A stretch of 64,000 nt of DNA from NCBI GenBank assembly GCA_009773355.1, contig WRPG01000019.1, forward strand, positions 66,913-130,912, read 5' to 3'. A program made the translations under genes and the position numbers. The notes below the pieces were generated by a model. That model had not been told where the DNA came from and did not search any database. It saw nothing but the letters and a program-made list of their open reading frames with translations. This DNA is from Limisphaerales bacterium (lineage in GTDB: Bacteria > Verrucomicrobiota > Verrucomicrobiia > Limisphaerales > SXTU01). Below, in pieces: positions 7,443 to 47,044 of this stretch; position 1 is the stretch's first letter; the number at the start of each line of letters is the position of its first letter.

Positions 7443-7449
7443 ACCGGGC

Positions 7450-10898: not shown

Positions 10899-10900
10899 TG

Positions 10901-30032: not shown

Positions 30033-30065
30033 TTGGATTGGAGCGCGGACGCCCACGTCCGCAGT

Positions 30066-30221: not shown

Positions 30222-30225
30222 AGTG

Positions 30226-31761
30226 TTACTGGCGGACAGTGGCACGGAAGAGTTGCTCACGCAATTCCGCCGGTGAGTTGGATGCCGCGATGGCTTGTGC
30301 GACGAACGCGATGCGCTCCGGCGCGAACATCTCCAGCAGCGATACCTTCAACTCGCCGTCGCCGCACGCGAGCGTGACGTGGTCCCACTGCGCGGAGAGC
30401 ACAGCGGCGCTGAACTTCTGGATAAGCTTGCCACGGATGAGCGCGCGCGTGGTCTCCGGCGGCTCGAACATCGCGCGCTGAATCTCAGCTTCCGCTGGCA
30501 CGCCGCGCATCGCGCCAGACTGCTCCAGGCCGTAGTAAAGGCCCTCGTCGAAGTCCAGCCGGTGGTATTCGAGGTCGAGGCTTTGCAGCCACGGGTCATC
30601 GTCCGCGAGGTTCTGCGCGGCCTGGAACTCGCGGAGGAGCGCGAGCTTGGCGACCCAGTCCAGCCGGTCGCGACAGCGCAGCGGGTCGGCTTCGAGGTCG
30701 TTCAACACCGCTTCCCAATCAGCCACAAGTGCTGCCCGTTCCGGCGTGGACAAGTCGCACATTTCCTTCACTACGGCGAGATACTCGCGCTGCACGGCGA
30801 GCGCGGTGGAAGGACGGCGGTTCGCCAGCTTCACCTCCCAGCGATGACGCGGGTCGCGGGAGATGGCGGGAAGTGCGGCGAGCGGGTCAGCGAGCTGTGG
30901 GAAGGCGCGCTGCGGGTCGCGGAGGATGGCTTCGAGCACGAGGGCGGTGGTGCCCACCTTCAGCCGCGTGGCGAAGGGCGAGAGGTTAGCGTCGCCGATG
31001 ATGACGTGGAAGCGCCGCCACTGGCGCGGGTCGGCATGCGGCTCGTCGCGGGTGTTGATGAGCGGGCGCTTCTGCATCGTGTCCACGCTCTGCAGCTCGC
31101 TGAAGAAGTCGCTGCGCTGGGCGATTTGGAAGTGCGGCGAGACGAACTTGTCCTCCGCCTCTATGGCGAACTTGCCCGCACCGGCGAAGATTTGCCGCGT
31201 GACGAGGAAAGCCTGCGCGCCCGCCGCCAGCCGCTCCCACGGCAGCGCGCGGGGCAGCAGGTAATTCTCGTGGCAGCCGTAACTGTGGCCGCGGAAGTCG
31301 GTGTTGTTCTTGTAGAGCCGCACCGTCGCGCCGCGCGCCTTGGAGAGACGCTGGGCGCAGGCCAGCACAACGCGTTCGCCCGCGCGGTCGTGCGCGACCA
31401 GCTCGGCGAGCGTGGAGCACTCGGGCGTGCAGTATTCGGGGTGGGCGTGGTCGTTGTAGAAGCGCGCGCCGTTGCCGAGCGCGAGGTCGCTCTTGATCTC
31501 GGCGAAGGTCAGTTCGCGGTGCGTGTCCTGCTCGAAGTAATCCGCCTCGTCGAAGTCCTGCCGCAGCTCGGGCACGTCGAAGCCCCGGTCGTCGTGGTGC
31601 GGGTTCTCGGCTTCGTAATCCCAGCGCATCCGCACGCCCGGCTCCATCGCGCTGCGCACCAGCGCGATGGACTCCGCCACCACGTCCAAGTCCTCCACGC
31701 CATCCCGCGCGATGCCGTATTCGGTCTCGATGCCGAAGAGGATGGGAGGTTCTTTAGCCAC
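30226..31761 (-). CDS. Pup ligase/deamidase family enzyme (PafA/Dop-like)
   Basis: 511 residues of the carboxylate-amine ligase fold shared by PafA and Dop. ATP/Mg motif ILFGIETEYGIA at the N-terminus, RMRWDYEAENPHHDDRGFD, NGARFYNDHAHPEYCTPEC, LYKNNTDFRGHSYGCHENYL, FLVTRQIFAGAGKF, INTRDEPHADPRQWRRFHVI, GDANLSPFATRLKVGTTALV. Some blocks look PafA-like (GIETE, ELVAHDRAGERVV, SYGCHENYL, ALAVQREYLAVV) and others Dop-like (RWDYE..RGFD, GDANLS, KVGTTALVL), with an insertion before the HAHPEY strand where Dop has its loop. It is the only family member in the locus. The start is GTG 31761 (VAKEPPILFG); the longer frame would run into the divergent DnaJ-like gene. Confidence 0.88.
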   Translation of the reverse strand: MAKEPPILFGIETEYGIARDGVEDLDVVAESIALVRSAMEPGVRMRWDYEAENPHHDDRGFDVPELRQDFDEADYFEQDTHRELTFAEIKSDLALGNGARFYNDHAHPEYCTPECSTLAELVAHDRAGERVVLACAQRLSKARGATVRLYKNNTDFRGHSYGCHENYLLPRALPWERLAAGAQAFLVTRQIFAGAGKFAIEAEDKFVSPHFQIAQRSDFFSELQSVDTMQKRPLINTRDEPHADPRQWRRFHVIIGDANLSPFATRLKVGTTALVLEAILRDPQRAFPQLADPLAALPAISRDPRHRWEVKLANRRPSTALAVQREYLAVVKEMCDLSTPERAALVADWEAVLNDLEADPLRCRDRLDWVAKLALLREFQAAQNLADDDPWLQSLDLEYHRLDFDEGLYYGLEQSGAMRGVPAEAEIQRAMFEPPETTRALIRGKLIQKFSAAVLSAQWDHVTLACGDGELKVSLLEMFAPERIAFVAQAIAASNSPAELREQLFRATVRQ

Positions 31762-31893
31762 AGATGAAACACGGATGAAACACAGACGGCACGGGGCGAA
31801 AGTGCGGCTGTGCTTGAGCGCTGTCAATCGGATGGAAATCCTGCCCAAAAATCGTCTTTGCGAGAACCATCTGAGCCGGGGTAAGGTCGCGCC
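31762..31893. promoter_or_regulatory. Divergent gap with GATGAAACACG direct repeats
   Basis: Between the PafA/Dop-like and DnaJ-like genes. It has AGATGAAACACGGATGAAAC, ACAGACGG, words that look like half of an intergenic repeat element. Promoters for both genes may lie here; I could not assign boxes. Confidence 0.4.
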
Positions 31894-32811
31894 ATGTTGG
31901 ACAACCTCCAAGAATGCTACCGACTCCTTGACGTGGAGCCGGATGCTTCTCTTGAGGAGGTGAAGCGTTCCTACCGTGAGTTGGTCAAGGTTTGGCACCC
32001 GGACCGATTCGCCAACGACCCGAGCCTCCAAGCCAAGGCGCAAGAGAAGCTGAAGCAAATCAACCTCGCCTACGAACGATTGTGCGAAGCCAAAGGTGTA
32101 GAATCGCACTCAAAACCGGCCCGTGCGGAACCACCCCAGTCTGAGGCGAAGGCAACGGCTGCGCCGTCCAGTTCAAGCGGTCCGTCAGGCTTCAGGGATG
32201 AGCCGCGGCCGTCCCAATCGGCGGGGGCACATCAGCCCTCGGTGTTCCTTCGTGTAGCTGGCGTTTTCGTTATCTTGGTATTGGCGAGAGCTGTCTGGTT
32301 CGCGAATCTCCAACAAGCGCCAACCCTTAGCCAGCCGCTAAAAGCGCACGCTCGCGAACGACTCACCATCGCAGAGATTGCTGCTGCGCATCAGGAAGTG
32401 CTCAAAGTGCAGCCCGACTTGGGAATGAATCTCCAAGAGTTCAGTCGCTACGCTCAAACGAACCAGACTGATTATGACTTCTCAGAAGGGTTTTCTCATT
32501 CCGAAGTATTGGTTGGTCCTCGCAGCGCCACGGCAGCAGATGGGAGAATGACACAATCTTCTCCCGCACTGCCAGACGAACCAAACCAATCGCTGGGCAA
32601 CACTTCGGCGAAGGGTTACTTCGACGTAGGTGCGACCAAGGATGATGTGCTGGCTATCCAGGGGAATCCAGATGGAGCCAACGAGAACACTCTCACCTAC
32701 GGGATATCCAAGGTCTTTTTCGAAAATGGGAAGGTCGTTTCCTGGAAGGCATATCCATCGTGTCCGCTCAAAGTGAAACCGCCGCTCGACTTGTCAAGGC
32801 CGCCACGATGA
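31894..32811 (+). CDS. J-domain (DnaJ-like) membrane protein
   Basis: 305 residues. The J domain occupies the N-terminal 65 residues (YRLLDVEPDASLEEVKRSYR, HPD motif in VKVWHPDRFANDP, LKQINLAYERLCEA). A low-complexity linker, one membrane helix (FLRVAGVFVILVLARAVWF) and a C-terminal domain follow that resembles small SmpA/OmlA-like folds (GYFDVGATKDDVLAIQGNPD, LTYGISKVFFENGKVVSWK). It should recruit an Hsp70 at the membrane. The gene is on the opposite strand to the proteasome genes it separates and looks lower in G+C than they do, suggesting later arrival. Confidence 0.8.
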   Translation: MLDNLQECYRLLDVEPDASLEEVKRSYRELVKVWHPDRFANDPSLQAKAQEKLKQINLAYERLCEAKGVESHSKPARAEPPQSEAKATAAPSSSSGPSGFRDEPRPSQSAGAHQPSVFLRVAGVFVILVLARAVWFANLQQAPTLSQPLKAHARERLTIAEIAAAHQEVLKVQPDLGMNLQEFSRYAQTNQTDYDFSEGFSHSEVLVGPRSATAADGRMTQSSPALPDEPNQSLGNTSAKGYFDVGATKDDVLAIQGNPDGANENTLTYGISKVFFENGKVVSWKAYPSCPLKVKPPLDLSRPPR

Positions 32812-32838
32812 ATCTCGCAACTGGGTGTTTCTCTTCAG

Positions 32839-33549
32839 ATGAAACGATGGGCCATCTACATTGATATTGAGGGGTTCTCGCTCATTTACAGCGCGAGCGA
32901 AGTGAAGGCGATTCGGCTGTTGGGCGAGTTGATTCAGGCAATTTATCAAGTTGGCTCTCGGGCTTTCGGGGACGACCTCAACAGGTTGTTTGTGCATCAA
33001 ACAGGCGACGGCTTCATCATTGTTTCTGGTTCCAAATTCCAAAACACTGCAACTCCTCTTTCAATCGCAATTGTCCTGATGCGTAGTTTTCTGATGAGTG
33101 GCGGTGCCGCGAAGTGCGGTGTTGCTGAAGGCGATTTCGCGGACATCAAAGGATGCTATCCAGAGCCGATCCGAAGCCGCATGGCAAGCGGTGGCGTGGT
33201 GCCGCTCGGAAGTGGTTTCATGCGAGTCTTCCCTGTTATGGGAAGCGCAATGGTCCGGGCACATCAGCTAACAAATCGAGCGAGTGGGGCACTACTCCTG
33301 ATACCCCCAAAGATGGGCGAATCCTTACCTACTTCGTTTAAGGTCAGCAAGTGTGGAGAGGATTACTCGGTGATAGATTGGATACACAGCGACGCGCCTG
33401 AAATCGCTGAAATCGCTTTGAAGAGTGGCATTGACCTAGCGGTGGCTTCGAACTTGAGGAGCCAATTGGTGAATTACCTCCTTCTGAATCAAGACGGACC
33501 ATCAGCCAAATGGAGGCAGAATACTCTTCAGTTTAACGGCTGCGGATAA
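32839..33549 (+). CDS. Probable class III nucleotide-cyclase-like protein
   Basis: 236 residues. The motifs IYIDIEGFSLIY and HQTGDGFIIVSG are spaced like the two metal/substrate segments of class III adenylate/guanylate cyclases (usually DIxGFT and GDG). A region with small Gly-rich turns (SMARMASGG-like SRMASGGVVPLGSGF) follows. Other catalytic residues cannot be confirmed, so it may be a degenerate or sensory cyclase homologue. It has no signal peptide and is clearly less G+C-rich than the surroundings. It follows the DnaJ-like gene by 27 bases on the same strand. Confidence 0.6.
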   Translation: MKRWAIYIDIEGFSLIYSASEVKAIRLLGELIQAIYQVGSRAFGDDLNRLFVHQTGDGFIIVSGSKFQNTATPLSIAIVLMRSFLMSGGAAKCGVAEGDFADIKGCYPEPIRSRMASGGVVPLGSGFMRVFPVMGSAMVRAHQLTNRASGALLLIPPKMGESLPTSFKVSKCGEDYSVIDWIHSDAPEIAEIALKSGIDLAVASNLRSQLVNYLLLNQDGPSAKWRQNTLQFNGCG

Positions 33550-33577
33550 ATACGGCGGCGCTGACAGTTCAGCTTCG

Positions 33578-35275
33578 TCAAACCACCCCGCTCCGCTCGC
33601 CCTTCCGCGTCCGAACCGGGCCGAGCTTCACCACGTTCTCCGGGTCGAAGTCGGTGAGCTTGAGCCAGTCTTCGGTCAGGTCGGTGGCGGGGAAGAGGTC
33701 GTTTTCGTCGTGTTCGAGGCGGAGGGCGGTGAGGAGGTCGGCGCGGGTGAGCTGCGTGTCGGCCCGGGTCTCGATGGCGCGGCGGATGGCGAGGGACTTC
33801 GCGCGCTCGACCACGGCGGCGATGATCGCGCCGCTGGCGAGGTCGCCGCGACAGAGCAGCTCGCGGCGGCCGCTGCGGAAGTTCACTTCGGCGAACTCGT
33901 TGTCCGGCGTGCGGGCGAAGTGCGCGTCGGTCACGGCGCGGGCGAGGTCGGCCTTCGGCTCGGCGAGCGGGAGGGAGTCGCGCAGGTAGATTTCGTAGAT
34001 GGCCTGCGCACCGGCCTGGTCGGGACGGCGGACGCGGATTTTGCGGTCAATGCGTCCGGGCCGCAGGATGGCCGGGTCAATCAGGTCCGCACGGTTCGAG
34101 GCGAGGATGACGACGACGTTGGTGAGCGGTTCGATGCCGTCCATCTCGGTGCAGAACATCGGGACGAGCGTGCTGAGAATGCTGTTGAAGCGTCCGCCGC
34201 GCCGCGTGCCGAGGATGCTCTCGGCCTCGTCAATGAACAGGAACGCCAGCGCACCGTCCTTCGCACGCTCACGGCACTGGGCGAAGAGGTCGCGCACCTG
34301 CCGCTCGCTCTCGCCGACCCACATGTTGAGAATCTCCGGGCCTTTGACGTGCAGGAAAAACTCCGGATGGTCCACGCCGGTCTGCGTCTTGATTTGCTGG
34401 CGGAGGTTGTAGGCGGTGGCCTTGCCGAGCAGCGTCTTGCCGCAGCCGGGCGGGCCGTGGAGGAGAAAGCCTTTCGGCACCGAATGCTCGAACTTCTTGA
34501 ACAGGTCGCGATGGAGAAAGGGCAGTTCAATGGCGTCGCGGATGGCGCGCACGGCCTCCTCCTGTCCGCCAATGGCCGACCACGGGAGTTCGCTGACGGT
34601 CTCCAGCGAGCGCTCGACGCGTTTGCCGACGCCGATGATTTCGAGCGCGACGCGCTGGTTCACGTCGAGGCGCACCTCCATGCCGGGCTTCATCTTCTCC
34701 TTTGCCAGCAGGGCGGAACGCTGGATGACGAAGTTCGTGATGCCGGCTTCCTGACCGATGCGCAGGCGGCCGTCGGAGAGCAGTTCGTCCACGCGGACGA
34801 TGGGGCCGTTGCGGTCGAAGCCGAGGCCCTGCACGACGGCGAAGGCTTCGTTGCAGAGCACGCGCTGGCCGGCTTGCAGGCTGGCAAGCGGGATGGCCGG
34901 GTCCACGCGGCAGACGTAATCCGTGCCGCCGAGGCAGACGTGGGCCTTGTCGCGGTCCACGCCCGCGAGGAACGTGCCGACGCGGAAGGCGGGCGAGCGG
35001 AGCTTCTCGATGATGGCGTCCATCTTCTCGAGCGCGGCGCGAGCCTGGTCGTTCATCTCCTCCACGGCGGCGATGCGCTCGCGGAGATAGACCATGTCGA
35101 AGATGGAGGCGTGGCGTGGCGGGAGCTTGCTCGTGATGAGGTCCACGAGCTGGAGGGTGGAAAGCTGTTCGAGTTCCTCGCGCGGGAGGAGGTCGGCGAG
35201 CGGGGTGGAAGTCAGCGAAGGTTCAGTGGGCGAGGGTTGCTCGCGGGGCACCGGCTTTTTCTTCGGCTCGGCCAT
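33578..35275 (-). CDS. mpa: Proteasome-associated AAA ATPase (ARC/Mpa family)
   Basis: 565 residues. N-terminal coiled coil (YLRERIAAVEEMNDQARAAL), tandem OB region (about 95-215), then the AAA domain with Walker A GPPGCGKT (274-281), Walker B ALAFLFIDEAESILG (342-356), sensor VVILASNRADL and arginine finger region ILRPGRIDRKIRV. It should form the ring that binds Pup by the coiled coil and feeds substrate into the 20S core. The C-terminus ends GERSGVV, without the penultimate Tyr (GQYL) by which Mpa opens the proteasome gate. It is separated from the rest of the locus by two opposite-strand genes. Confidence 0.92.
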   Translation of the reverse strand: MAEPKKKPVPREQPSPTEPSLTSTPLADLLPREELEQLSTLQLVDLITSKLPPRHASIFDMVYLRERIAAVEEMNDQARAALEKMDAIIEKLRSPAFRVGTFLAGVDRDKAHVCLGGTDYVCRVDPAIPLASLQAGQRVLCNEAFAVVQGLGFDRNGPIVRVDELLSDGRLRIGQEAGITNFVIQRSALLAKEKMKPGMEVRLDVNQRVALEIIGVGKRVERSLETVSELPWSAIGGQEEAVRAIRDAIELPFLHRDLFKKFEHSVPKGFLLHGPPGCGKTLLGKATAYNLRQQIKTQTGVDHPEFFLHVKGPEILNMWVGESERQVRDLFAQCRERAKDGALAFLFIDEAESILGTRRGGRFNSILSTLVPMFCTEMDGIEPLTNVVVILASNRADLIDPAILRPGRIDRKIRVRRPDQAGAQAIYEIYLRDSLPLAEPKADLARAVTDAHFARTPDNEFAEVNFRSGRRELLCRGDLASGAIIAAVVERAKSLAIRRAIETRADTQLTRADLLTALRLEHDENDLFPATDLTEDWLKLTDFDPENVVKLGPVRTRKGERSGVV

Positions 35276-35428: not shown

Positions 35429-36220
35429 CTAAGTGGCCTTCGGAGCTTCGGTCATGCCCATCACCTGATAGCCGCAGTCCACGTAGAGGACCTGGCCGGT
35501 GATGGCGGCCGCGCCGTCGCTGGCGAGGAAGGTGCCGGTCGCGCCGAGTTCGTCGGGGAGGACGTTGCGCTTGAGCGGGGCGTGCTGCTCGTAGTGCTTG
35601 AGCATGGCGCTGAAGCCGGCGATGCCGCGAGCGGCCAGCGTGTTCACCGGGCCGGCGGAGATGCAGTTCACGCGAATCCTCTGCCCGCCGAGGTCGTAGG
35701 CGAGGTAGCGGGTGCTGGCTTCGAGCGCGGCCTTGGCCACGCCCATGACGTTGTAGTGCGGGATGACCTTCTCCGCACCATAATAACTCATCGCCACGAT
35801 GCTGCCGCCTTCGGTCATCAACGGCGCGGCCCCGCGCGCGAGCGCGACAAGCGAGTAGGCGCTCACGTCGTGGGCGACTTTGAAGGCGTCGCGGGTGGTG
35901 TTCACGAAGCGGCCTTCGAGCGCCTCCTTCGGCGCGAAGGCGACGGCGTGGAGCAACAGGTGCAGCTTGCCGAACTTCTGCTGCACGGCGGCGAAGACGG
36001 CGGTGATGTCCTCGTCCTTGGTCACGTCGCACGGCAGCAGCAGCGTGTCCGGGCCGAAGGTGGCGACGAGTTCCTCGACGTTCTCCTTGAGCCGCTCGCC
36101 CTGATAGGTGAAGGCGAGCGTGGCCCCGGCCTTGTGCCAGGCCTGCGCGATGGCCCACGCGATGGAGCGCTTGTTGGCGACGCCGAAGACGAGTCCGATT
36201 TTGCCAGCGAGTAGTGACAT
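35429..36220 (-). CDS. fabI: Enoyl-ACP reductase (NADH), FabI
   Basis: 263 residues of the short-chain dehydrogenase fold with FabI features: GLVFGVANKRSIAWAIAQA (nucleotide loop), LAFTYQGERLKENVEEL, LLHAVAFAPKEALEGRF, catalytic Tyr/Lys in SYYGAEKVIPHYNVMGVAKA, RIRVNCISAGPVNTLAARGI and YVDCGYQVMGM. It reduces enoyl-ACP in the last step of fatty-acid elongation. ATG 36220 (MSLLAGKIGLV) gives the normal length. No other fab gene is near. Confidence 0.93.
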   Translation of the reverse strand: MSLLAGKIGLVFGVANKRSIAWAIAQAWHKAGATLAFTYQGERLKENVEELVATFGPDTLLLPCDVTKDEDITAVFAAVQQKFGKLHLLLHAVAFAPKEALEGRFVNTTRDAFKVAHDVSAYSLVALARGAAPLMTEGGSIVAMSYYGAEKVIPHYNVMGVAKAALEASTRYLAYDLGGQRIRVNCISAGPVNTLAARGIAGFSAMLKHYEQHAPLKRNVLPDELGATGTFLASDGAAAITGQVLYVDCGYQVMGMTEAPKAT

Positions 36221-36369
36221 AACATTGAAAGGATGCGGTGAGCGGACGCGGCGTGGCAAGGTGGGAGTTCGGCAGCGCGGAGAACCTGCTGGCCCGGACA
36301 AAACTTTTCCGAAACTATCACCAAGGATTTCACCGCGCCGCTTGTCCTACTGTGCAAAACCAACGCCGC

Positions 36370-36918
36370 ATGGCCGACACGGATGAGGAACTGGGATGGG
36401 TTCGCGCCAGCCAGACGGGCGACCCGGCGGCGTTTGGGCGGCTGGTCGGCCGCCATCAGCGCATGATTCACGCCCTCGCCTATCGTATGACCGGCTCGCT
36501 CGCCGAGGCGGAGGATTTGGCGCAGGAAACTTTCATCGCGGCGTGGCACCAACTCGAGGGCTTCCGGGGCGAGGCCAGCTTTTCCTCATGGATCTACCGC
36601 ATCGCCGTGAATCGCTGTCTGAACTGGCGCTCCCGCGCCCAGCGCCGCGACTCTGTCCATCAAGCGTGGAGCGAACAGCGCGAGTCAATCCCTAGCGGTG
36701 ACGCCCCCCGCGCCCGTCAGGTGCAGGAGGCCCTGCTCCAACTCGACCCCGCGCAGCGTGCCACCATCGTGCTCACCGTTTATGATGGGCTGAACCACGC
36801 CGAGGCTGCGCGCGCATTGGGCTGCGCGGAAACCACTGTCTCGTGGCGCGTCTTCACGGCACGGAGGAAATTGAGGAAGCTGCTCGCCAATGTGCAGGGC
36901 AAGGGAGGTGGCGCGTGA
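36370..36918 (+). CDS. ECF sigma factor heading the Sel1/CsgG operon
   Basis: 182 residues: region 2 (FGRLVGRHQRMIHALAYRMT, EAEDLAQETFIAAWHQLEGF, FSSWIYRIAVNRCLNWRSRA) and region 4 (LLQLDPAQRATIVLTVYDGL, NHAEAARALGCAETTVSWRV). Its stop overlaps the next start as GTGA, and a membrane protein that fits an anti-sigma factor follows. It is therefore a classic sigma/anti-sigma pair, unlike the kinase-linked sigma at 2.9 kb. The upstream 150 bases presumably carry an autoregulated promoter; I could not pick one out. The ATG at 36370 is the first start before the domain. Confidence 0.9.
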   Translation: MADTDEELGWVRASQTGDPAAFGRLVGRHQRMIHALAYRMTGSLAEAEDLAQETFIAAWHQLEGFRGEASFSSWIYRIAVNRCLNWRSRAQRRDSVHQAWSEQRESIPSGDAPRARQVQEALLQLDPAQRATIVLTVYDGLNHAEAARALGCAETTVSWRVFTARRKLRKLLANVQGKGGGA

Positions 36919-37514
36919 GCCACCGTGACGACGAACTCAACGAATTGCTCCGCACCACCTGTGTGCCGGACCGAACTCCCGGGTATTGGGAGGAATTTCC
37001 ACTGACCGTCCTGCGGCAACTGCACCGCCCCGTCAGCCCGCCGGTTGACGCATCTTCGTCCCAGCGCCTCTGGGCGTGGGGCCTCGGGCTGGCGACGGCG
37101 TGCCTGGTGCTGGGTTTCTTCGCCGGCTTTCGGCGTGGCCACGCCGTCGGCTTCAGTGCGGCCGACGTGGCGCAGAGCCGGAAGATTTACCAGGAAGTGG
37201 CCGCGCTCTTTCCCGACCGCGTGCAAACCGTGCTGCTCAACGGGCGCGGCTCGCAGCTCGTGCTCGCCAGCGACGCGCAGCGGCCCGCCTCCGCGCCGTT
37301 GCTGGTGCAAATCTGCCACGCGGGGGATTGCCGGCGGTTCATCACGTTCAGCGGCCAGCGCGTGGCGTTGAACGGGGAGACCTTTGAGGTTTTGTCAGAC
37401 GCCGAGGGCAATGTGCTGGTGGTCGGGGAACGATTGGCGTGGAGCAGCGGCGAGCCGCGCAAGGCCGCCGCCGGCTACCACATTCGCGCGACCGCGCTGG
37501 GGGAGGCGCTGTGA
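36915..37514 (+). CDS. Probable membrane anti-sigma factor
   Basis: 199 residues from a GTG that overlaps the sigma-factor stop, with GGGAGG 7-12 bases upstream. A short cytoplasmic N-terminus (DDELNELLRTTCVPDRTPGY) is followed by one membrane helix (WAWGLGLATACLVLGFFAGF) and a periplasmic part with two Cys (ICHAGDCRRFITF). No zinc-binding HxxxCxxC anti-sigma motif is visible, so assignment rests on position, topology and coupling. The periplasmic domain would sense the inducing signal. Confidence 0.7.
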   Translation: MSHRDDELNELLRTTCVPDRTPGYWEEFPLTVLRQLHRPVSPPVDASSSQRLWAWGLGLATACLVLGFFAGFRRGHAVGFSAADVAQSRKIYQEVAALFPDRVQTVLLNGRGSQLVLASDAQRPASAPLLVQICHAGDCRRFITFSGQRVALNGETFEVLSDAEGNVLVVGERLAWSSGEPRKAAAGYHIRATALGEAL

Positions 37515-38365
37515 ATGCGCAGCGCGGAACGCGGAATGTGGAGGGCCGGCGGCGGCTGGCCGTGGCGCTCCTGCTCGCGGCGGTGTCGTCCGGGGCGGTG
37601 GAAGTCGTGCCATCGGCCCCGCCGCAGCAAGTCTTCGCCGGCGGGGCGCGAGCGGTGGAGGTGCGTTTCCGCAACGACGCGGCGACACCTTCACGCGTCG
37701 AGGTGCGGCTTCATTTGTTCCAGCTCACTTCCGCCACCGCCGCGCCAGTGGGCGGTGCGCGCGTGTGGAAAACGCTGGCAGTCCTGCCCGGCCAGACGGT
37801 TGTCGAGAGCGCAAGCGTGGATGTTCCCGCCGTGCGGGCCGCCACGCGCTTCGCCGCACGCTGGCTGGATGCTGGCGGGCGGCTGCTCGGGGTGACGGAG
37901 TTATGGGCGCACCCAGACAATCTGCTCGACGCGCTGAAACTGCTGGTCGGCGGGCAGCCGATCGGTGTCGCGGAGAGCAGGCCGGGATTGCAACTGGTGC
38001 TGGCTGCGCGCGGCATTCCAGTCGCCGAGCTGAAGCGCGCGGAAGATTGGAACCGATTTCGCGGGCGGCTGGCGTTTGTGGCGAACCAGCCGGAGTCAAC
38101 TCAAGGCGAACTCCGGCTGGAGCCTGCCCTGCTGGCCCGCGCCAAGGAGGGACTGGCGGTGGTCTGGTTCCAGACCTCGCCGGCAATTTCACCGCCCGCG
38201 CTGCCAGTCGTCGAGCGGGTGCGCGTCGGGCGCGGCACCGTGCTGCTTGCGCCGGCGTCCGCCCTGGACGGACTCGACCGCTCCGCTGCCGCGCAGCGCG
38301 CGCTCGTGCGGCTGGCGGAACTGGCCTTGTCCCCGCCGGCACAATTGCTCGCCCTCACCCCATGA
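37511..38365 (+). CDS. Unknown exported protein, operon gene 3
   Basis: 284 residues from a GTG overlapping the anti-sigma stop (GTGA), preceded by GGGAGGC. N-terminal signal (RRLAVALLLAAVSSGAVEVV), then a beta-rich domain (GGARAVEVRFRNDA, RVEVRLHLFQLTSATAAPV, GQTVVESASVDVPAVRAATR) that looks immunoglobulin-like, and a second part with GRLAFVANQPESTQGELRLE and GRGTVLLAPASALDGLD. No family is recognised. Its place between the anti-sigma and CsgG-like genes suggests a periplasmic part of the same system. Confidence 0.65.
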   Translation: MNAQRGTRNVEGRRRLAVALLLAAVSSGAVEVVPSAPPQQVFAGGARAVEVRFRNDAATPSRVEVRLHLFQLTSATAAPVGGARVWKTLAVLPGQTVVESASVDVPAVRAATRFAARWLDAGGRLLGVTELWAHPDNLLDALKLLVGGQPIGVAESRPGLQLVLAARGIPVAELKRAEDWNRFRGRLAFVANQPESTQGELRLEPALLARAKEGLAVVWFQTSPAISPPALPVVERVRVGRGTVLLAPASALDGLDRSAAAQRALVRLAELALSPPAQLLALTP

Positions 38366-38400
38366 ACTGTCCTAGCCTTCCGCCACATTCCCGCACCGCC

Positions 38401-39318
38401 ATGAAGACCATCAGTTCTTTGCTGCTCGCCGCGTTGCTCGCCGTCCCCGCCTTCGCCGCCGCACCGCCGCTCACCGTCGCGGTTTTCAACTTCGAGACCA
38501 CGGACACGGAATTGCGCGATGCCGGCCCGAAGCTCGCCACGCTGCTCAACGCCCTGCTTTCCGCCGAGGACGGCCTGATCACGCTGGAGCGCGCCGAACT
38601 GGAAAAGGCGCTGGGCGAACAGGAACTCGGCCTCTCCGGCACCGTGAAGGCCGAGACCGCCGCCAAGGTCGGCCAGCTCACAGGCGCAAAAATCCTCGTC
38701 ACCGGCCGCGTCTTCAAGGCCGGCAACGAGACCCTCGCCGTCGCCAAGATCATCAGCGCCGAGACCAGCCGCGTGTATGGCGAGATCGCCCGAGGCAACG
38801 CCAACGCCTCGCTCGCCGACCTTGCGAGCGAGCTGTCCGGCAAGATCGCCAGGACCGTCACGACCAAGGGCGACACGCTGGTTGCCAAGGTCCGCCCGCG
38901 CGAGGAGCGGATGGAGGCGTTGAAGAAGTCACTCAAGGCCGGCAAGCGCCCGACCGTGCTGGTGAAGATTCCCGAGGTTCACTTTGGCACGCCCACCGTG
39001 GACCCGGCGGCGGAGACGGAGATCGGCCTCATCCTGCGCGAGTGCGGCTTCACGCTCGTGGACGCGCAATCCAAGACCAAGCCCGACTTTGAAATCCTCG
39101 GCGAAGCCTTCAGCGAGCGCGGCCCGCGCAAGGGCAACCTGCAAACCTGCAAGGCGCGCGTGGAGTTGAAAATCCGCGACACCGCCACCGGCACGCTGAT
39201 CGTGGACCGGCAGACCAGCGTGGCGGTGGATCTCTCCGAGCAGATCGCCGCCAAGACCGCGCTGCAAACCGCCGGCGCGGAGTTGGCCGAGCGCCTCGCG
39301 CCGAAGCTGCTGAAGTAG
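38401..39318 (+). CDS. Secreted CsgG/FlgO-like protein
   Basis: 305 residues. Signal peptide MKTISSLLLAALLAVPAFAA, no lipobox Cys. The body matches the CsgG/FlgO pattern: LTVAVFNFETTDTELRDAGP, ITLERAELEKALGEQELGLS, VGQLTGAKILVTGRVFKAG, AKIISAETSRVYGEIARG, then TVLVKIPEVHFGTPTVDPAA and KARVELKIRDTATGTLIVDR. CsgG-type proteins form outer-membrane secretion pores or scaffold cell-surface assembly. An ATG at 38362 overlaps the previous stop (ATGA) and is in frame; the signal peptide favours 38401. A similar CsgG-like domain occurs twice in the giant gene downstream. Confidence 0.8.
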   Translation: MKTISSLLLAALLAVPAFAAAPPLTVAVFNFETTDTELRDAGPKLATLLNALLSAEDGLITLERAELEKALGEQELGLSGTVKAETAAKVGQLTGAKILVTGRVFKAGNETLAVAKIISAETSRVYGEIARGNANASLADLASELSGKIARTVTTKGDTLVAKVRPREERMEALKKSLKAGKRPTVLVKIPEVHFGTPTVDPAAETEIGLILRECGFTLVDAQSKTKPDFEILGEAFSERGPRKGNLQTCKARVELKIRDTATGTLIVDRQTSVAVDLSEQIAAKTALQTAGAELAERLAPKLLK

Positions 39319-39336
39319 TCCTCAACCACTATCACA

Positions 39337-40029
39337 ATGGCCTCACCTGTCCTATCCAACTCCGCCGTGTGCCCGCGACGACGCTGGTTGGCTGGCCTGC
39401 TCGCCTCATTGTGCGCAGGTCGGTTCATCTCGCAGGCCGCGGAGCCTGACGCCGCCGCCTTGCTGCGGCGGGCGGCGGCAGCGCGGATGAGGTCGGCAGG
39501 GAACCAATCCCCGGAAGCGGGCAGGGAATTTGTCCAGGCCACGCAGGTGGCGGCGGATGCGTTCACGGCGGTCGAGCTGAAGGCGTCCGGCAGCACCGGG
39601 CAGTTCGTGCGGGTGACGTTGAACCAGCACGGCACGCGCTTCGACGGCATCCGCTTTACCGTGCCGGCGGGCGAGCCGCGCGACCTCGTATGGGCCTTCG
39701 CCGGACTGCCGCGTAACATGCCTGCCGAGTGGTATATCCTGCCGCGCGCCGGCGAAATGCAGGGCTTCCGCCAGTTCTTCCGGGGCGGCCCCGGCATGAA
39801 GGACGTGCCGTGGGCGGAAACGGTGATTCCCTACCAAAGTTTCCTCCAGCCACTGAGCGGCGGAGAACTCAAGCCACAGCAGGAGTATCTCATTTGGTTC
39901 CGGTTCCACGATCAGCGGCCAAAAGACCTCTACGTGAAGGTGAAGCTCGTGCCCACCGGCACACCGCTCAACTCGACCGCGGCCGTCCACGCCCAGCTCG
40001 GCTTGAGCTACCATCCGCCCTCCAGGTGA
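39337..40029 (+). CDS. Unknown exported protein, operon gene 5
   Basis: 230 residues. An arginine-containing N-terminus with a hydrophobic core (RRRWLAGLLASLCAGRFISQ) precedes a globular domain with no recognised family. Prominent blocks are VELKASGSTGQFVRVTLNQH, GIRFTVPAGEPRDLVWAFAG and PQQEYLIWFRFHDQRPKDLY. The RR and hydrophobic core would permit Tat or Sec export. Its stop overlaps the giant gene's GTG start (GTGA), so it is part of the same operon. Confidence 0.6.
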   Translation: MASPVLSNSAVCPRRRWLAGLLASLCAGRFISQAAEPDAAALLRRAAAARMRSAGNQSPEAGREFVQATQVAADAFTAVELKASGSTGQFVRVTLNQHGTRFDGIRFTVPAGEPRDLVWAFAGLPRNMPAEWYILPRAGEMQGFRQFFRGGPGMKDVPWAETVIPYQSFLQPLSGGELKPQQEYLIWFRFHDQRPKDLYVKVKLVPTGTPLNSTAAVHAQLGLSYHPPSR

Positions 40030-43000
40030 ACCCACCACCCGACGTGACCATGCTCCGAAGACTCTTTCACGAACGCAGCGCGGAAGCCATCGCCCGCCGC
40101 CCGCTCAACCGGACGTGGGTGCCCGGGCTCCTGGCCGTGCTGGCCTGGACCCTCCCCGCGCGCGCTGCTGATGGGCCGGACGCATCGGCTCGCTGGCTCG
40201 TCGCGCCCGTGGCAGAAGTCCGCGCCGCCGCAGAACGAGGCGACGCCGCCGCGCAATTCGCGTTCGGCGAACGCCAACTGCGCGGTCGCGACGGCAAGGC
40301 GGACGTTGTCGAAGCGTATCGTTGGACTGAACTCGCGGCGGCGCAAGGTCAGGTGGAAGCGCAACTGCGTCTCGGCATGCGCTACGAACAGGGCATCGGC
40401 TGCGCGGTGGATTTGACGCTCGCCCGCGAGTGGTTTGAACGCGCGGCGGAGAAGGGTGAGGCCGGCGCGATGCTGGGATTGGCCCGGGTTCGGAGCACGG
40501 TGGTCATCGGCGCGGAGCTGGATTCCGCCGCGGCGCTCGACGGGTGGCGGAAGGCGGCTGCGACCGGAGTGCGGGATGGTCATTGGCATCTGGCCAAGGC
40601 TTTGAAATCCGGAGCGGTCCGCAACCCTGCATTGGCAGCCGAACGCCGCAAGCCGCTCGAAGTGCTCGCGTTGGCCGGCGATGCCGTCGCGCAGGCGGAG
40701 GTGGGCAACCTGCACGTCGAAGGCACCTTCGCGCGCCCGGTGGTCACGGAGACCGTCCTGTATTGGTGTCAGTTGGCGCTACGCAACGGCGTTGGTGGGA
40801 ACGCGGAGCGGCGCTACGTCAATCTGGCGCTCAAGAACCTGCCGCCTGAGAAGGTGACGGAAGTGGAGAGGCGCGTGGCGGCGTTTCAACCGGCACCGGT
40901 GAAAGGTTTTTCGGCCGGCGTGCAATCGGCCCTGCATCTGGACGGGCCGCGCCCGCCGGGGTGCGCGTCGCCCGGCAGCGTGACGCAGTTTGCCCAAACG
41001 CGGCAGCAGGCGGAGGGCGGCGACGCGGCGGCGCAGTTGCAGCTCGCGCTGGCCTTTCACCATTCCGATGGCTGGGATGACGCGGGGCACAACCAACTCG
41101 GCGGCGTGACGATTGTGAACGGCCGCGTGGCGAAGATTTCGCCCCGCCCTCCACCGAAGCACCTCGAAGCTGCGGCGCGCTGGTATCGCGCGGCGGCTAG
41201 CAATGGGGTCGCGGCGGCTGGAACGCAGCTCGGCTACATGGCTGTTAACGGCCAGCTCAACGACGCCGACTTGGCCTTCGCGGTGGCCGGCGTGCAGCGT
41301 CAATCGGCGGCAGGCGACATGGCGGCGCACCTCCAACTGGCGAACTTGCACCTCGCGAGCCGGGGCGTCCCGAAGAACATTCCGGAGGCAGTGCGCCTGC
41401 TCACACTCGCGGCCGAGGGCAAGAACCGGGACGCGATGTATCAGCTCGCGATGCTGCATCACACCGGCGCGCTGGTGCCCGTGAATCTGGGCGAGTCGGC
41501 GCGTTGGATGCGGCTGGCGGCGCAAGCGGGTCAGCCACTCGCCGCGCGTCAGTTGCGGGACTTGTTCGGTCAGGCGGTGCCAACCGCTGCGAAGCCGGCG
41601 ACTTCCACGTCGGCGCGAAAGGCCGCGCGGCTCGCGTTGGTGCCGGTGGGCAATTCGCTCCGGCCGATGGCTGACTTGCTCACAGCTTCATTCAGCGCGT
41701 TGCCGGATGTCACCTTGCTGGAGCGGGCGGAGATTGAGCGGGTGATTCGCGAGCAGTCCTTGGCCGCCACGCTGGGTCGCGACCCGTTGAAGCTCGGCCA
41801 ACTGCTCGGGGCGGACGGCGTCTTGCTGCTGGAAACCAACACGGTCGGAAATGTCGCGATGGCCGGGGCGCGGCTCGTTGCAGTAGGCCCCGGCGTCGTG
41901 CTGGGAGAATGGCTGGCTCCGTTCCCGGTTCAGGACGCGGCGGGCTGGAGCGCCCGGGTGACGAAGGACGCGGCCCCGAAGCTGAACAAGCTCGCCGTGT
42001 CACGCGCTCAGGCCACGCCGATTTCGCTGCTCGGCGTGCGGATGGTGGTGAACGCGCCTGACACGCTGGCGGTGCAACAGGGCTTGTCGCGGCTGCTCGC
42101 GCATCGCCTCACGCAGGAGCCGGAGCTTTTTGTGCTGGAGCGGCAACGCATCGAACGGCTCGGCGCGGAGAAGATGTTTTCCCCCGAGGTGGAGACGCCG
42201 TTCTGGAGTGGCAGCCACCTGATTGACGGCACCATCGAGCCGGACTTGAACACGCCGGGCGTGCTGACGGTGCGGCTGCAACTGGCTTCCCCCGGCACTG
42301 CGCCCGTGACGCTTTCCACCACGGGCGCACGCAACAATCTGGCCGCGCTGACGGAGTCGCTCGCCGGCAAGGTGCTGACGGCGTTGCAAAAAACTCCGTC
42401 CGCCCAGTGGCAGCCGGAGGCGGAAGCGCAGCGGTTTTGGGAGGAAGCCTCGTGGGCCAGACGCTGGGGCCAGTGGCGACCGGCGGCGGCGGCGATGGAG
42501 TCAGCGTGGGCGCTCGGGCTGCGCGGTTCCAACCACGCGGCCTTTCGGATGGAGGTGCTGCTCGGGTGCGTGCAGCCGGGCGGGCTGCGATGGTCTCCGA
42601 CTGTGGATATGCCGGCTTTGATGCGCCAGCCACCGGACTTGGCAAACTTGGAGTTCACCCTCCGGGCCTTGGACGCGCTGCACGACCAGTTGGCGAACCG
42701 CACGCCGGGGGAGCGGGCCGCACAGCCCGCATGGGCGGCTTACGGGACTGCGGCGCTGGTCTTCGCCGGACGCGTGCTGGAGGACTTTTACCTCGCGCCG
42801 GAGCATCGCCGGGACGCGGGCGACGGCTTGGAAATGCTGCGCGCGCAGGCACGGAGCACGTCGGCCCTCCTGCACAGCATCCCGGCGATGACCAACGGCT
42901 CGGCCCGCTGGGAGGCCATCAGTTATCAATTCCGGCAAGACGTGCTGGGGCGTTCCGCGCTCGGTTACGTGTCCGAGCAAATCCGGCTCGATGCCGTCGA

Positions 43001-45638
43001 AGGACCGGGGAAAGCTTATTGGCAAACCGAGCTGCCTGACATGCCGGCGGAGCACAAGCACCGGATGCGGGCCGAGACATTTGCGGAACAGCGATGGCAG
43101 TTCGTCACGAGTGCTGCAAGCCGGCAAGTCGCGTGGACTCCGGCGGAGCGCCAATCGCTGCGGGCCAAGTGGCAGGAGCATCTGGCCGCGCTCGCGAATT
43201 CCCCCGATGCGGTCGAGCAGTTGGAAGGCTTGGCCTGCTCGCTCATTCCGCCGGGCGGAGGTGTCCACATCCAGCCGGAGCCAGACGCGGCGGTGGTGGA
43301 AGCCATCCGCCGCCTGTCCGATGCGGCTTGGCTGCATCGCGAGGCGCTCTTCGCCGGCCGACTCGCGGCGCACACCTGGCATCAACTGCGCGCGCTCTGC
43401 CTCGCGCGGTTGCGGCTTACGGCGGAGAATTACGACTTGGACAAGGTGCCGGAGTTCTTCGAGCCGCTGGATGACCGGCTCCGCGATTACGCTGCGACGC
43501 AGGGGACGGCGCGCGCCTTGGAATTCCTTCGCACCGCCACGGCTCCGGACTTGACGCGCTTCCTCGAACTCGTCGCGTTGCCCAACTTCAACGCCTCGCA
43601 GCGCGCTGAACTGCTGCTGGAGGGGCGGCGCCATCAGGAACGGCTGCGGGTGCAAGGTCTGGAGCCGTTGCTCGCCAGATTCGGAAGCGTGACTGGCCCG
43701 AACTCCGTCGCCTCTCTCACCGCGCCGCCGCCGGCCCCAGCGGCTCCTCCGCGCGGCTCGCCCGCTGCCGACGCTCTGAGCGTCACGCGGTTTTGGATGG
43801 CACCCGAGTTTCGCAAGTCACCGGCGGAGGTCGTCGGGTATCGCCTGCCGGCAAGCCTCGTGGTGGAAAGCAAACGTGCTGAAATCCACGAGTGGTTATG
43901 GGCGGACGACCGCGTGTGGGTTGCCTGGCGGCATGACATGAAACTCTACTGGCCGGGGGAGGGTTTCATGCTGCCGGCCTGCAGCCATCTCGCGAGCTAC
44001 TCGCTGCCAGATTTCAGTGGCGACTTGAACCCGCCACCACTTCCTCCCGAGGTCGAATTGCCGGGGCTGTATCAACCCGCGCCCAACCTGCCGCAGGGGC
44101 GCTTCGCGGTGGTGGGTGGACAGGCATTCGCGAGCGCCACCAACACAGTGTGGCGCGTCGGCAAAGGAGCCGCCGGGCCGCTCAAACTCGAGTTGGCCGG
44201 CCAGCCTCTGATCGCCAGCGTGCATGGGCGGTTGATTATCGGAGCGAAGGACGAGCTGTATGTCCACGACGTGAAGGCTGGCACGACGGAGCTGCTGGGC
44301 AGCGGACGGCGTCGGCCAGCGGTGACTCCGGCAGATGGGTTCGCCTTGGGATTGGGGCAGGCGGTCGAACTACCCGGCCAGAAAATGCGCGTGGCGTTCT
44401 CCGCCACGGCCGGTTGCTATGACTACGACTTCGCAAGCCGGCAATGGACGGCCATTGCGTCTCCGGTCGCCTATGCTCGCCGCAATGTGGGCGAGGCCTG
44501 GACGGCCACGACGTTTGGCAACAACCACGCCATCATGCACCTGCTGCCCAACTCCGGCACCAACTGGCAGCTCGCGTCGCTCCGCCTGCCCGCACCGCCG
44601 CAGGACTTGGGCTTCTTCATGACCGCGTCCTCCCCGCCCGGTGCGCCGCTGTGGCATCCCACCGATGGCTCGCTCGCCCCGGCGGGACTGGCGGCCACCT
44701 CGTTCTCGAACCAACTTTGGACCATCACCGGTTTGGAGTTTCATTTGGGGCACACCAATCAGGACACGTTCATGCTGTCCTCGAACGGATGCCACGTCCG
44801 GCTCTCCGCGTGGCGCACGGATTTGGCCCTGCCGGCGACGATTCCCCTCTGGCTGGAGTTGCCGACCAATGCGATGTCGCGCTTGAGCGTCGGGCTGGCA
44901 CGGTCCCGCTCCTACCTCGGCAAGCTCGCAACCTCCACGGGCGCGCTGCTGGCCACGCCGCCGGGACTGCTGTATCGCGCCGAGGGGATGCCGGGCTTCT
45001 GGTTCATCCCGTGGAGCGAAGTGTTGCCGCGCGTTGAGGCGCAATTCTCGCGGCTCGCTGCCGCCCGCGCGGCCCGTCCCGCGCCCGGCAGCCATCGCGG
45101 ACGCCAACTGTTGCACACCTACGACCTGAACGGAGATGACCGGCTGGACGGCACGGAGTTCGCCTCGCTCCTCTCCGGAGAAAAACTGTCCGCTGACGCA
45201 AACATGGCGCGCTCGCAGTTCAGGTCCCTGTTCAACAATGCCGACCGCAACCGCGACAGCCGACTGGATGGAGAGGAGTTGCTCTCGACTGCGGATTACA
45301 TCCGGGCACGCGCAGCGGGTGGAACCCAGGCCAGGCCTGGCGCACAGGGTTTTCGCCCACCAGGTTTTCCGGGCGCTGGCGCACCCGGCGGCCTTCCGCC
45401 CCGGCCGGGTTTTCCCTTCAGCCCGAAGCTGACCACCGCTCCGGGGCAAGTGCCACAAGGCCCGCCGCCACCAGAAATCCTCGAACGCTACGACCAGAAC
45501 AAGAACGGCAAGATGGATCCGGACGAGATGCAGGCGTTCATGCGCGACATGAGGAGCGGCAAATCGCCCCGTCCCCGCGGAACCAACGCGCCGCCCGGCG
45601 CGCCCGCGCCCGCGCCGAAAGCGCCGGCCAAACCTTGA
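40026..45638 (+). CDS. Giant Sel1/CsgG-like/EF-hand exported protein, 1870 aa
   Basis: The start is GTG 40026, overlapping the previous stop as GTGA; ATG 40050 is an alternative. A signal-like segment (VPGLLAVLAWTLPARAADG) leads to about eight Sel1-type TPRs in two blocks (RGDAAAQFAFGERQLRGRDG, GQVEAQLRLGMRYEQGIGCA, GDMAAHLQLANLHLASRG). Two CsgG-like domains follow (DVTLLERAEIERVIREQSLA, LFVLERQRIERLGAEKMFSP). Then comes a long alpha-rich region (about 790-1250), a propeller-like region (FAVVGGQAFASATNTVWRVG, LIIGAKDELYVHDVK), and three EF-hand loops near the end (DLNGDDRLDGTEF, DRNRDSRLDGEEL, DQNKNGKMDPDEM) separated by Pro/Gly-rich linker. I know no single family with this order. Confidence 0.75.
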   Translation: MNPPPDVTMLRRLFHERSAEAIARRPLNRTWVPGLLAVLAWTLPARAADGPDASARWLVAPVAEVRAAAERGDAAAQFAFGERQLRGRDGKADVVEAYRWTELAAAQGQVEAQLRLGMRYEQGIGCAVDLTLAREWFERAAEKGEAGAMLGLARVRSTVVIGAELDSAAALDGWRKAAATGVRDGHWHLAKALKSGAVRNPALAAERRKPLEVLALAGDAVAQAEVGNLHVEGTFARPVVTETVLYWCQLALRNGVGGNAERRYVNLALKNLPPEKVTEVERRVAAFQPAPVKGFSAGVQSALHLDGPRPPGCASPGSVTQFAQTRQQAEGGDAAAQLQLALAFHHSDGWDDAGHNQLGGVTIVNGRVAKISPRPPPKHLEAAARWYRAAASNGVAAAGTQLGYMAVNGQLNDADLAFAVAGVQRQSAAGDMAAHLQLANLHLASRGVPKNIPEAVRLLTLAAEGKNRDAMYQLAMLHHTGALVPVNLGESARWMRLAAQAGQPLAARQLRDLFGQAVPTAAKPATSTSARKAARLALVPVGNSLRPMADLLTASFSALPDVTLLERAEIERVIREQSLAATLGRDPLKLGQLLGADGVLLLETNTVGNVAMAGARLVAVGPGVVLGEWLAPFPVQDAAGWSARVTKDAAPKLNKLAVSRAQATPISLLGVRMVVNAPDTLAVQQGLSRLLAHRLTQEPELFVLERQRIERLGAEKMFSPEVETPFWSGSHLIDGTIEPDLNTPGVLTVRLQLASPGTAPVTLSTTGARNNLAALTESLAGKVLTALQKTPSAQWQPEAEAQRFWEEASWARRWGQWRPAAAAMESAWALGLRGSNHAAFRMEVLLGCVQPGGLRWSPTVDMPALMRQPPDLANLEFTLRALDALHDQLANRTPGERAAQPAWAAYGTAALVFAGRVLEDFYLAPEHRRDAGDGLEMLRAQARSTSALLHSIPAMTNGSARWEAISYQFRQDVLGRSALGYVSEQIRLDAVEGPGKAYWQTELPDMPAEHKHRMRAETFAEQRWQFVTSAASRQVAWTPAERQSLRAKWQEHLAALANSPDAVEQLEGLACSLIPPGGGVHIQPEPDAAVVEAIRRLSDAAWLHREALFAGRLAAHTWHQLRALCLARLRLTAENYDLDKVPEFFEPLDDRLRDYAATQGTARALEFLRTATAPDLTRFLELVALPNFNASQRAELLLEGRRHQERLRVQGLEPLLARFGSVTGPNSVASLTAPPPAPAAPPRGSPAADALSVTRFWMAPEFRKSPAEVVGYRLPASLVVESKRAEIHEWLWADDRVWVAWRHDMKLYWPGEGFMLPACSHLASYSLPDFSGDLNPPPLPPEVELPGLYQPAPNLPQGRFAVVGGQAFASATNTVWRVGKGAAGPLKLELAGQPLIASVHGRLIIGAKDELYVHDVKAGTTELLGSGRRRPAVTPADGFALGLGQAVELPGQKMRVAFSATAGCYDYDFASRQWTAIASPVAYARRNVGEAWTATTFGNNHAIMHLLPNSGTNWQLASLRLPAPPQDLGFFMTASSPPGAPLWHPTDGSLAPAGLAATSFSNQLWTITGLEFHLGHTNQDTFMLSSNGCHVRLSAWRTDLALPATIPLWLELPTNAMSRLSVGLARSRSYLGKLATSTGALLATPPGLLYRAEGMPGFWFIPWSEVLPRVEAQFSRLAAARAARPAPGSHRGRQLLHTYDLNGDDRLDGTEFASLLSGEKLSADANMARSQFRSLFNNADRNRDSRLDGEELLSTADYIRARAAGGTQARPGAQGFRPPGFPGAGAPGGLPPRPGFPFSPKLTTAPGQVPQGPPPPEILERYDQNKNGKMDPDEMQAFMRDMRSGKSPRPRGTNAPPGAPAPAPKAPAKP

Positions 45639-45649
45639 CGCGCCCCGCC

Positions 45650-47044
45650 ATGAAACTGTCCTTGATTGCCTTGCTCCTGTCCGCCGCGCTGCTGGCTTCC
45701 GCCGCCGAGCCGCCCATCGCCGCCCTAAACTTCCACGCGCTGTCCGCTCGCTGGGCCAAGCGTCCCGCCGCCGAGGTTGAAGCCGATGCCGCGCGGGGCG
45801 ACGCCGTCGCGCAGTTTTACCTCAGCCAACTCCTCCTCACCGGACGCGGCGTGCCCCGCGACGACGCGCGCGGGCTGATACTCCTCCGCCAGTCCGCCAC
45901 GCAAGGCAACGCCGAGGCAATGGCCGAGCTGGGCCGCCGCCAGCTCTTCGGCGAAGGCCTGCCGGAAAACTTCGACGAAGCCCTGCGCCTCGCCCGCGCC
46001 GCCGCGAGCCGGAGCAACGGAGCCGGGCTGCACCTGCTCGGGCAGTTGCAGGCGTCGGGCATCGGCATGGCCGCCGATGCCGCTGCGGCCTTCAAATTGT
46101 ATGAGCAGGCCGCCGCCGCCGGCAGTCCGGTCGCCATGCGCACCATCGGACGCATCCATCTGGAAGGGCGGTTCGGTTTCAAGCCCGACGCCGCCGAGGC
46201 AAACCGCTGTTATCACCGTGCCGCCGAGGCCGGCCTGCCCGCCGCGATGAACGCGTATGGCTACAGCCTCTTCACCGGCCGGGGCGTCCCCAAAGACACG
46301 AAGGCGGGCCTGAACTGGATTCTCCGCGCCGCCGCGAATGGCGAGGTGGGCGCACTCCGCATGCTCGGCGAGCAGGGACAGTTGGATGCCGCCACCCAAC
46401 TGGCTGCCTGGCGGGACGCCGCCCGAGCCGGCAATGCCGACGCGCTATTTCGTCTGGCCCGCCTCCTCGCGACGGGCGAATTGGAGCCGAAGGACAGCAC
46501 GGAGACGCCGCACCGCCTGCTCCAGGCCGCCGCCGAGGGCGAGCACATCGAGGCGGCGCTGATGCTCGGCGACCGCTACCGCTGGGGCTACGGCGGGCCG
46601 CGCGACTTGGTGGCCGCCTCGCGCTGGTTTCTGCACGGCGCGTCGTTTGTCGGCGGGCTGGGCGACACGTCCGCAAAGCTGAGCATCAGCGGTGGCTCCA
46701 AGGATCCGGCCCTGCCCGGCGGGCTGAACAACTGGTTCGACGAGGGAAACTGGAAGGCACGTCGCTCCACTCCCGACGATGCCTTGCTCGCCGAGGTGAT
46801 GGACCACTACCTGCGTGCCGCTGAAGCGCGCGACGCCGCCGCAATGCGGGTGCTCGCCGGTTTCTACCAGCGCGGCCAGCATGTGCCAAAGGATCCGGTG
46901 GAAGCTTCCGCGTGGCTGCTGCTGGCCCGGCAGCACAGCCCCGCTGCCGCCGCCGAGGCGGACGCCGCGCTGCGATCGCTCTCTCCGGAGCACCAGCAAC
47001 AAGCCCGCGCCCGCGTGCGCCAGCTCATCAAGCGCACGCTTTGA
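45650..47044 (+). CDS. Secreted Sel1-repeat protein
   Basis: 464 residues. Signal peptide KLSLIALLLSAALLASAAEP, then about eight to ten Sel1-like TPRs (GDAVAQFYLSQLLLTGRGVP, GNAEAMAELGRRQLFGEGLP, GSPVAMRTIGRIHLEGRFGF, GLPAAMNAYGYSLFTGRGVP, GEHIEAALMLGDRYRWGYGG, DAAAMRVLAGFYQRGQHVPK). Sel1 proteins are adaptors for protein complexes. The gene starts 11 bases after the giant Sel1 gene, and the two share repeat style, so it is probably the last gene of the ECF operon. An in-frame TTG at 45635 would overlap the previous stop. Confidence 0.82.
   Translation: MKLSLIALLLSAALLASAAEPPIAALNFHALSARWAKRPAAEVEADAARGDAVAQFYLSQLLLTGRGVPRDDARGLILLRQSATQGNAEAMAELGRRQLFGEGLPENFDEALRLARAAASRSNGAGLHLLGQLQASGIGMAADAAAAFKLYEQAAAAGSPVAMRTIGRIHLEGRFGFKPDAAEANRCYHRAAEAGLPAAMNAYGYSLFTGRGVPKDTKAGLNWILRAAANGEVGALRMLGEQGQLDAATQLAAWRDAARAGNADALFRLARLLATGELEPKDSTETPHRLLQAAAEGEHIEAALMLGDRYRWGYGGPRDLVAASRWFLHGASFVGGLGDTSAKLSISGGSKDPALPGGLNNWFDEGNWKARRSTPDDALLAEVMDHYLRAAEARDAAAMRVLAGFYQRGQHVPKDPVEASAWLLLARQHSPAAAAEADAALRSLSPEHQQQARARVRQLIKRTL

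Follow-up and report, generated by a model that had tools for sequence, protein, structure and literature searches.

A predicted autoregulated ECF sigma factor operon coding for exported TolB-N/CsgG-fold proteins in a Limisphaerales bacterium

Layout and conservation of the operon

The window, namely, the whole stretch of 64,000 nucleotides of Limisphaerales DNA analysed here, harbours seven co-directional, tightly packed genes on the + strand, which span positions 36370-47044 and code for a sigma factor, an anti-sigma candidate with one transmembrane (TM) segment, and five exported proteins. The features, with the evidence on which each assignment is based, are as follows.

36321..36349, + strand: predicted ECF promoter, CCAAGGATTTCACCGCGCCGCTTGTCCTA, 20 bp upstream of g1 and common to 15/15 operon sigma genes
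36370..36918, + strand: g1, ECF sigma factor, 182 aa; Pfam sigma regions 2 and 4, grouping with the operon sigmas
36915..37514, + strand: g2, single-pass membrane anti-sigma candidate, 199 aa; position after the sigma gene, one TM segment, conserved family
37511..38365, + strand: g3, exported protein, 284 aa, with predicted Ig-like beta-sandwich and alpha/beta domain; structure model, fold search, conserved family, adjoins g4
38401..39318, + strand: g4, exported, predicted soluble tandem TolB-N/CsgG-core protein, 305 aa; Pfam CsgG, structure model, fold matches
39337..40029, + strand: g5, putative accessory protein, 230 aa; homologs only in L022 and, weakly, L026
40026..45638, + strand: g6, giant partner, 1870 aa; Pfam, alignment, hhalign to g4, recurrence at g4 loci
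45650..47044 (alternative TTG start 45635), + strand: g7, putative accessory exported Sel1 protein, 464 aa; Pfam Sel1

GTGA overlaps join g1 to g2 (36915), g2 to g3 (37511) and g5 to g6 (40026), and the remaining intergenic gaps g3/g4, g4/g5 and g6/g7 measure 35, 18 and 11 bp, with a possible TTGA overlap at the last junction. The coordinates, the Pfam matches and the operon's own promoter bear out the preliminary description of an ECF-controlled seven-gene operon with three GTGA junctions. Hydropathy reveals N-terminal hydrophobic signal segments in g3, g4 and g7; export signals of g5 and g6 are plausible by eye only, no segment exceeding the hydropathy cut. Scans of the region for generic sigma-70 promoters and terminators gave matches no commoner than chance.

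Two neighbours upstream were recognised by eye. A FabI-like enoyl reductase frame (35429-36221, - strand) is divergent from the sigma operon and has the upstream region in common with it. The - strand also carries a Pup-proteasome-like cluster (29259-35275), which would be unusual in the phylum if correctly read, with a proteasome beta-type gene (29259-30056), a Dop/PafA-like gene (30226-32109) and an ARC/Mpa-like AAA ATPase gene (33578-35275).

By tblastn and start-site analysis, many related loci were seen to have sigma, g2, g3 and g4 in this order, joined by the same short overlaps or separated by the same short gaps. Conservation of gene order, which the preliminary description had proposed to look for, was thus found, and because the order is kept in relatives, a chance arrangement is excluded. 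Among 293 genomes of the order, 37 have g4 (E at most 1e-30), 34 have g3 and 37 have g2; the g2 count used was 26 of these 37, with partial matches that were shorter or weaker (E 9e-16 or weaker), most of them from one family, set aside. All 26 counted g2 genomes and 32 of the 34 g3 genomes contain g4, g3 adjoins g4 in most genomes of the order having both, and for 29/35 g3 copies g4 lies at most 400 bp downstream on the same strand. Fisher p values for co-occurrence are about 1e-27 to 1e-35, a statistic that ignores shared ancestry. The distribution is patchy, with g4 in one of ten sampled congeners, and this spread (37/293), together with the relics described below, points to a dispensable function.

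Across the phylum, g4 relatives were detected in 60 of 387 sampled genomes. Among 20 such stretches, several display a sigma gene, a gene of membrane-protein size, a gene of exported size, g4 and a giant protein (for example, L087, L088, L089, L091, L092, L095, L101, L104 and L106; L099 is without the giant), the second and third genes being recognised mostly from position and size, not sequence; in other stretches among the 20, the sigma gene was not seen beside g4. L034-L036 (labelled Planctomycetaceae), L033 (Opitutaceae) and L037 (Euphemobacter) have both sigma and g4, with different or diverged genes in between. As recognised by these features, the layout reaches across Verrucomicrobiota and partly into Planctomycetota. 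Most of the nearest named g4 relatives come from MAGs that bear the labels Limisphaerales, Pedosphaera or Verrucomicrobia subdivision 3, which very likely places the host in this part of the Verrucomicrobiota; the closest one, L022, labelled Proteobacteria, is probably a mislabelled MAG. Genes were called in relatives with a simple script and, because nearly all of these are draft MAGs, genes missing there may correspond to contig ends.

Judging from these comparisons, the conserved core is composed of the sigma factor g1, the anti-sigma candidate g2, g3, g4 and a giant g6-type protein. The seven-gene set initially put forward holds in this part, whereas g5 recurs only in the congener L022 and weakly in L026, and Sel1 proteins like g7 come and go (L023, L039 and L042 have one). 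On the same comparisons, g5 and g7 are rated accessory rather than core.

Sigma factor, promoter and candidate anti-sigma factor

The short g1 protein (182 aa) matches Pfam Sigma70_r2 (6e-22) and r4_2 (2e-11), both above cut-off, which places it among ECF sigma factors. With other sigma genes from G000 (the window's own genome), G046 and G409 as controls, the operon sigmas form a single clade in FastTree (support 0.84) and need two label changes in the C20 IQ-TREE tree versus 17 in shuffles; 4% of bootstrap trees need one label change. The phylogenies thus suggest essentially one ECF lineage, the clustering being strong and falling short of a demonstration of strict monophyly. The whole of G000 gives 30 matches to sigma region 2, indicating many other ECF systems there; one match is located close to where the window begins (C74:69522-69728, about window 2610-2816, - strand).

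AAGG-N17-GTC is found upstream of 15 out of 15 operon sigma genes checked, compared with 0.11 expected from Markov shuffles. Most of these loci share the fuller form CAAAGGAW-N14-YGTCNNA, and the window copy at 36321-36349 fits CAAAGGA-N16-GTC. The strict motif lies near the start of 15 of the 170 called genes of those loci, and 14 of these 15 are sigma, g2, g3 or a divergent g6-like gene. Additional copies precede g3 in L024, L025, L026 and L028, g2 in L030, and a divergent g6-like gene in L043. The extra promoters of relatives are therefore copies of the same sigma motif, and separate regulation of the exported genes, which the preliminary description had named as an objection to a common system, was not seen.

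In whole-genome scans, the exact pattern has a single match in the 6.16-Mb genome G000, at the window operon, and only two in the congener G005, one belonging to the sigma operon and the other to a g6-g7-like pair not linked to it. The other 24 scanned genomes yielded some further matches as well as backward-control matches, so that isolated matches elsewhere are not regarded as evidence. A match in G010 (L068) is not accompanied by any operon homolog and was ascribed to chance. In distant loci, CAAAGA and GTCTAA elements were noticed by eye only. Conservation of the operon's own promoter before the sigma gene suggests autoregulation, and an ECF-controlled, autoregulated operon appears well supported. 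Relic-like arrangements also exist: a promoter and a sigma stub or debris followed by g4 or a giant gene (L044:6970-7340, L049:9800-10000 and L038:3690-4140), and a shortened sigma gene with g4 directly after it (L042:60-660).

With regard to g2, the protein has one hydrophobic segment (residues 52-72), leaving about 50 residues on the cytoplasmic side. It matches no Pfam or NCBIfam family, known anti-sigma domains included, and a sequence search of solved structures returned nothing useful. Class I anti-sigma domains (ASDI) are defined by an N-terminal four-helix domain with or without the Hx3Cx2C motif (PMC7406223). Compared with this class, g2 has no Pfam match, and its roughly 50 residues before the TM segment are short for four helices. 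The periplasmic C-terminal domain carries a Cys pair in 13 of 15 sequences, mostly as C-x4-C, which suggests disulfide or metal sensing. In L037, the position after the sigma gene, occupied elsewhere by g2, is taken by a zf-HC2 protein. Since zf-HC2 is a typical anti-sigma domain, this replacement supports the anti-sigma role assigned to g2, and we infer that g2 acts in this manner. One family (G138, G214, G242, G246, G250, G254, G276 and G287) matches the g2 profile over a short N-terminal section of about 100-145 positions; these matches possibly represent shorter anti-sigma relatives without most of the periplasmic domain.

Folds of the exported proteins

The g4 protein matches Pfam CsgG (1e-9), and searching solved structures by sequence brought no useful match. 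A model built from a 26-row alignment (pLDDT 84.9, pTM 0.60) was submitted to a fold search, in which residues 23-156 matched best the TolB N-terminal domain (Z 15.3, rmsd 2.6, 122 aligned) and residues 182-305 the CsgG core (Z 11.8, rmsd 2.8, 122 aligned) and PelC (Z 11.2). The protein is accordingly modelled as a soluble tandem of two predicted TolB-N/CsgG-core domains. In the window's genome, a single further CsgG-family match exceeds the cut-off; it falls in a lipoprotein-like frame at another place on the contig. Tandem arrays of g4 were observed in L026 (six copies, 4470-10918) and L028 (four copies, 7040-10852); the extra copies, at about 36-41% identity to the g4 protein of the window, have diverged further than the last one.

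These matches raise the question of a secretion or surface-assembly machine, in which g4 and g6 would form a CsgG- or PelC-like ring or pore exporting a fibre or polysaccharide, with the Sel1 proteins as assembly factors. The Pfam CsgG matches in g4 (1e-9) and in many giant partners, and the fold matches to the CsgG core and to the ring-forming PelC, are in keeping with it. However, the signal region of g4 is a plain signal peptide without a lipobox Cys (g4 has cysteines only at residues 215 and 250), the structure is predicted as a soluble double fold devoid of barrel hairpins, with the CsgG match confined to the core, and the conserved genes include no curli subunit or polysaccharide synthase. 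A ring or pore thus seems improbable, and the surface-assembly machine guessed at initially, if read as a CsgG-like pore, does not agree with the predicted soluble double fold, whereas the alternative initial guess, envelope stress, may still be a sensible one; a curli-type pore was judged unlikely for g4 from its signal peptide, model and gene content.

The g3 model (pLDDT 82.8) comprises an Ig-like sandwich and an alpha/beta domain. The sandwich, a common fold, reaches Z 9.7 (rmsd 3.1, 104 aligned), and the search barely probed the alpha/beta half; no credible Pfam match and no NCBIfam name was obtained for the protein.

In the giant g6, Pfam detects Sel1 repeats (3e-25), EF-hands close to the C-terminal end (1e-8) and, weakly, CsgG. 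Alignment delineates a CsgG-like tandem repeat at about residues 531-810, and hhalign pairs the first of its units with the first g4 domain (97.6%, E 3e-12). The preliminary description had recognised a single CsgG-like protein, and this stands for g4, but since g6 has a tandem CsgG-like region too, the fold is carried by two proteins. Its two Sel1 proteins are indeed g6 and g7 (Sel1, 3e-38). Among 48 g4 loci examined (L027 and L083 being the same locus), 36 code for a protein of about 500-1,840 aa in which a stretch resembles the CsgG region of g6, as a rule close to the N terminus; the rest of these partners is variable, with Sel1, TPR, ankyrin, EF-hands or weak propeller matches. The small g5 protein has no Pfam or NCBIfam match and possibly carries a twin-arginine-like signal.

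Sigma control might be limited to g1-g4, g5-g7 being read-through neighbours devoid of a functional link. Such a restriction would explain that g5 is almost absent elsewhere and that the available contig lacks an adjacent giant gene in L022 and others, but g6-type giants recur beside g4 across the phylum and the same promoter precedes the separate g6-g7-like pair of G005, so we find it doubtful.

The variable partner architecture (Sel1, TPR, ankyrin or EF-hands), the g4 tandem expansions (six copies in L026, four in L028) and the patchy distribution with relics would also suit nutrient or surface-contact sensing, with the sigma switch setting the amount of exported solenoid/EF-hand proteins, and these binding some external ligand or partner. 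We hold this to be unlikely, as the core has no conserved enzyme or transporter and no ligand-binding family was recognised in it.

Proposed role and comparison with known systems

The reading that we prefer, with a probability of about 0.5, is an autoregulated ECF switch making a periplasmic complex of TolB-N/CsgG-fold proteins and solenoid partners for envelope maintenance. At rest, g1 would be held by the single-pass membrane protein g2; a signal acting on the periplasmic C-terminal domain of g2 would release g1, and the freed sigma factor would transcribe its own operon via the CAAAGGA-N16-GTC promoter. The exported products would include g4 with its tandem fold, the beta-sandwich protein g3 and the giant g6, which combines the same tandem fold with a Sel1 solenoid and EF-hands. 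The likeliest arrangement would be an association of g4 with g6 through their common fold in a scaffold that maintains or remodels the envelope, with g5 and g7 as accessory proteins tuning it.

The steps of this scheme differ in their footing. Operon, gene order, promoter, regulon membership and domain content are supported by sequence. The switch, with g1 on its own promoter and g2 as brake, is proposed because of gene order, promoter and general knowledge of ECF systems, and a signal would act on g2. Complex formation between g4 and the giant partner is deduced from shared folds, which are no proof of association, and from frequent co-occurrence, and the envelope role is a guess. Weighing against the preferred reading, g2 has no known anti-sigma domain and a cytoplasmic part of only about 50 residues, and the patchy distribution with relics marks the function as dispensable.

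More broadly, but tentatively, the operon may represent an unrecognised periplasmic machine of Verrucomicrobiota and relatives, in which paired TolB-N/CsgG-fold proteins would be controlled by an ECF lineage and a promoter of their own, with an anti-sigma factor of a new type whose periplasmic domain bears a Cys pair. The envelope biology of Verrucomicrobiota has received little study. If true, the proposal would provide this phylum with a defined, testable regulatory unit having a dedicated sigma lineage and a precise promoter, together with two protein families without a Pfam name (g2 and g3) and a double TolB-N/CsgG fold recurring in a small and a giant protein. The promoter allows the regulon to be read from genomes, and the conserved core indicates which genes belong together and which (g5 and g7) are optional.

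The preliminary description knew of no named system with such content; in agreement, no description of the gene group was found in the open-access full texts searched, so the set appears undescribed, and a group may exist in the ECF classification. Like TolB, g4 has the TolB N-terminal fold in its N-terminal half, but TolB joins this domain to a six-bladed propeller in one chain, whereas the second unit of g4 is of the CsgG-core type, without a propeller; a propeller is only weakly indicated in the giant partners. CsgG and PelC are matched by the C-terminal half of g4, and CsgG also through Pfam. Unlike the CsgG curli channel, g4 has no lipobox or predicted transmembrane hairpins, consists of a double domain and stands in an ECF operon, and none of the seven operon genes matches a curli partner (Pfam, NCBIfam). 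Structural comparison gives LpoB and FlgT the same general fold as g4, but g4 scores 15.5 bits against the LpoB family cut-off of 22.3, and no penicillin-binding-protein or flagellar context was seen.

With regard to regulation, Pfam revealed no FecR-type anti-sigma or TonB-dependent receptor domains in g2 or the other six genes. A close parallel is with ECF/anti-sigma operons of the RpoE-RseA type, in which an ECF sigma gene is likewise followed by that of a single-pass membrane protein, with a conserved promoter before the sigma gene and exported targets. In contrast to these, g2 belongs to no known anti-sigma family, the targets amount to one operon with rare satellites instead of a broad stress regulon, and the exported genes are new in an ECF setting.
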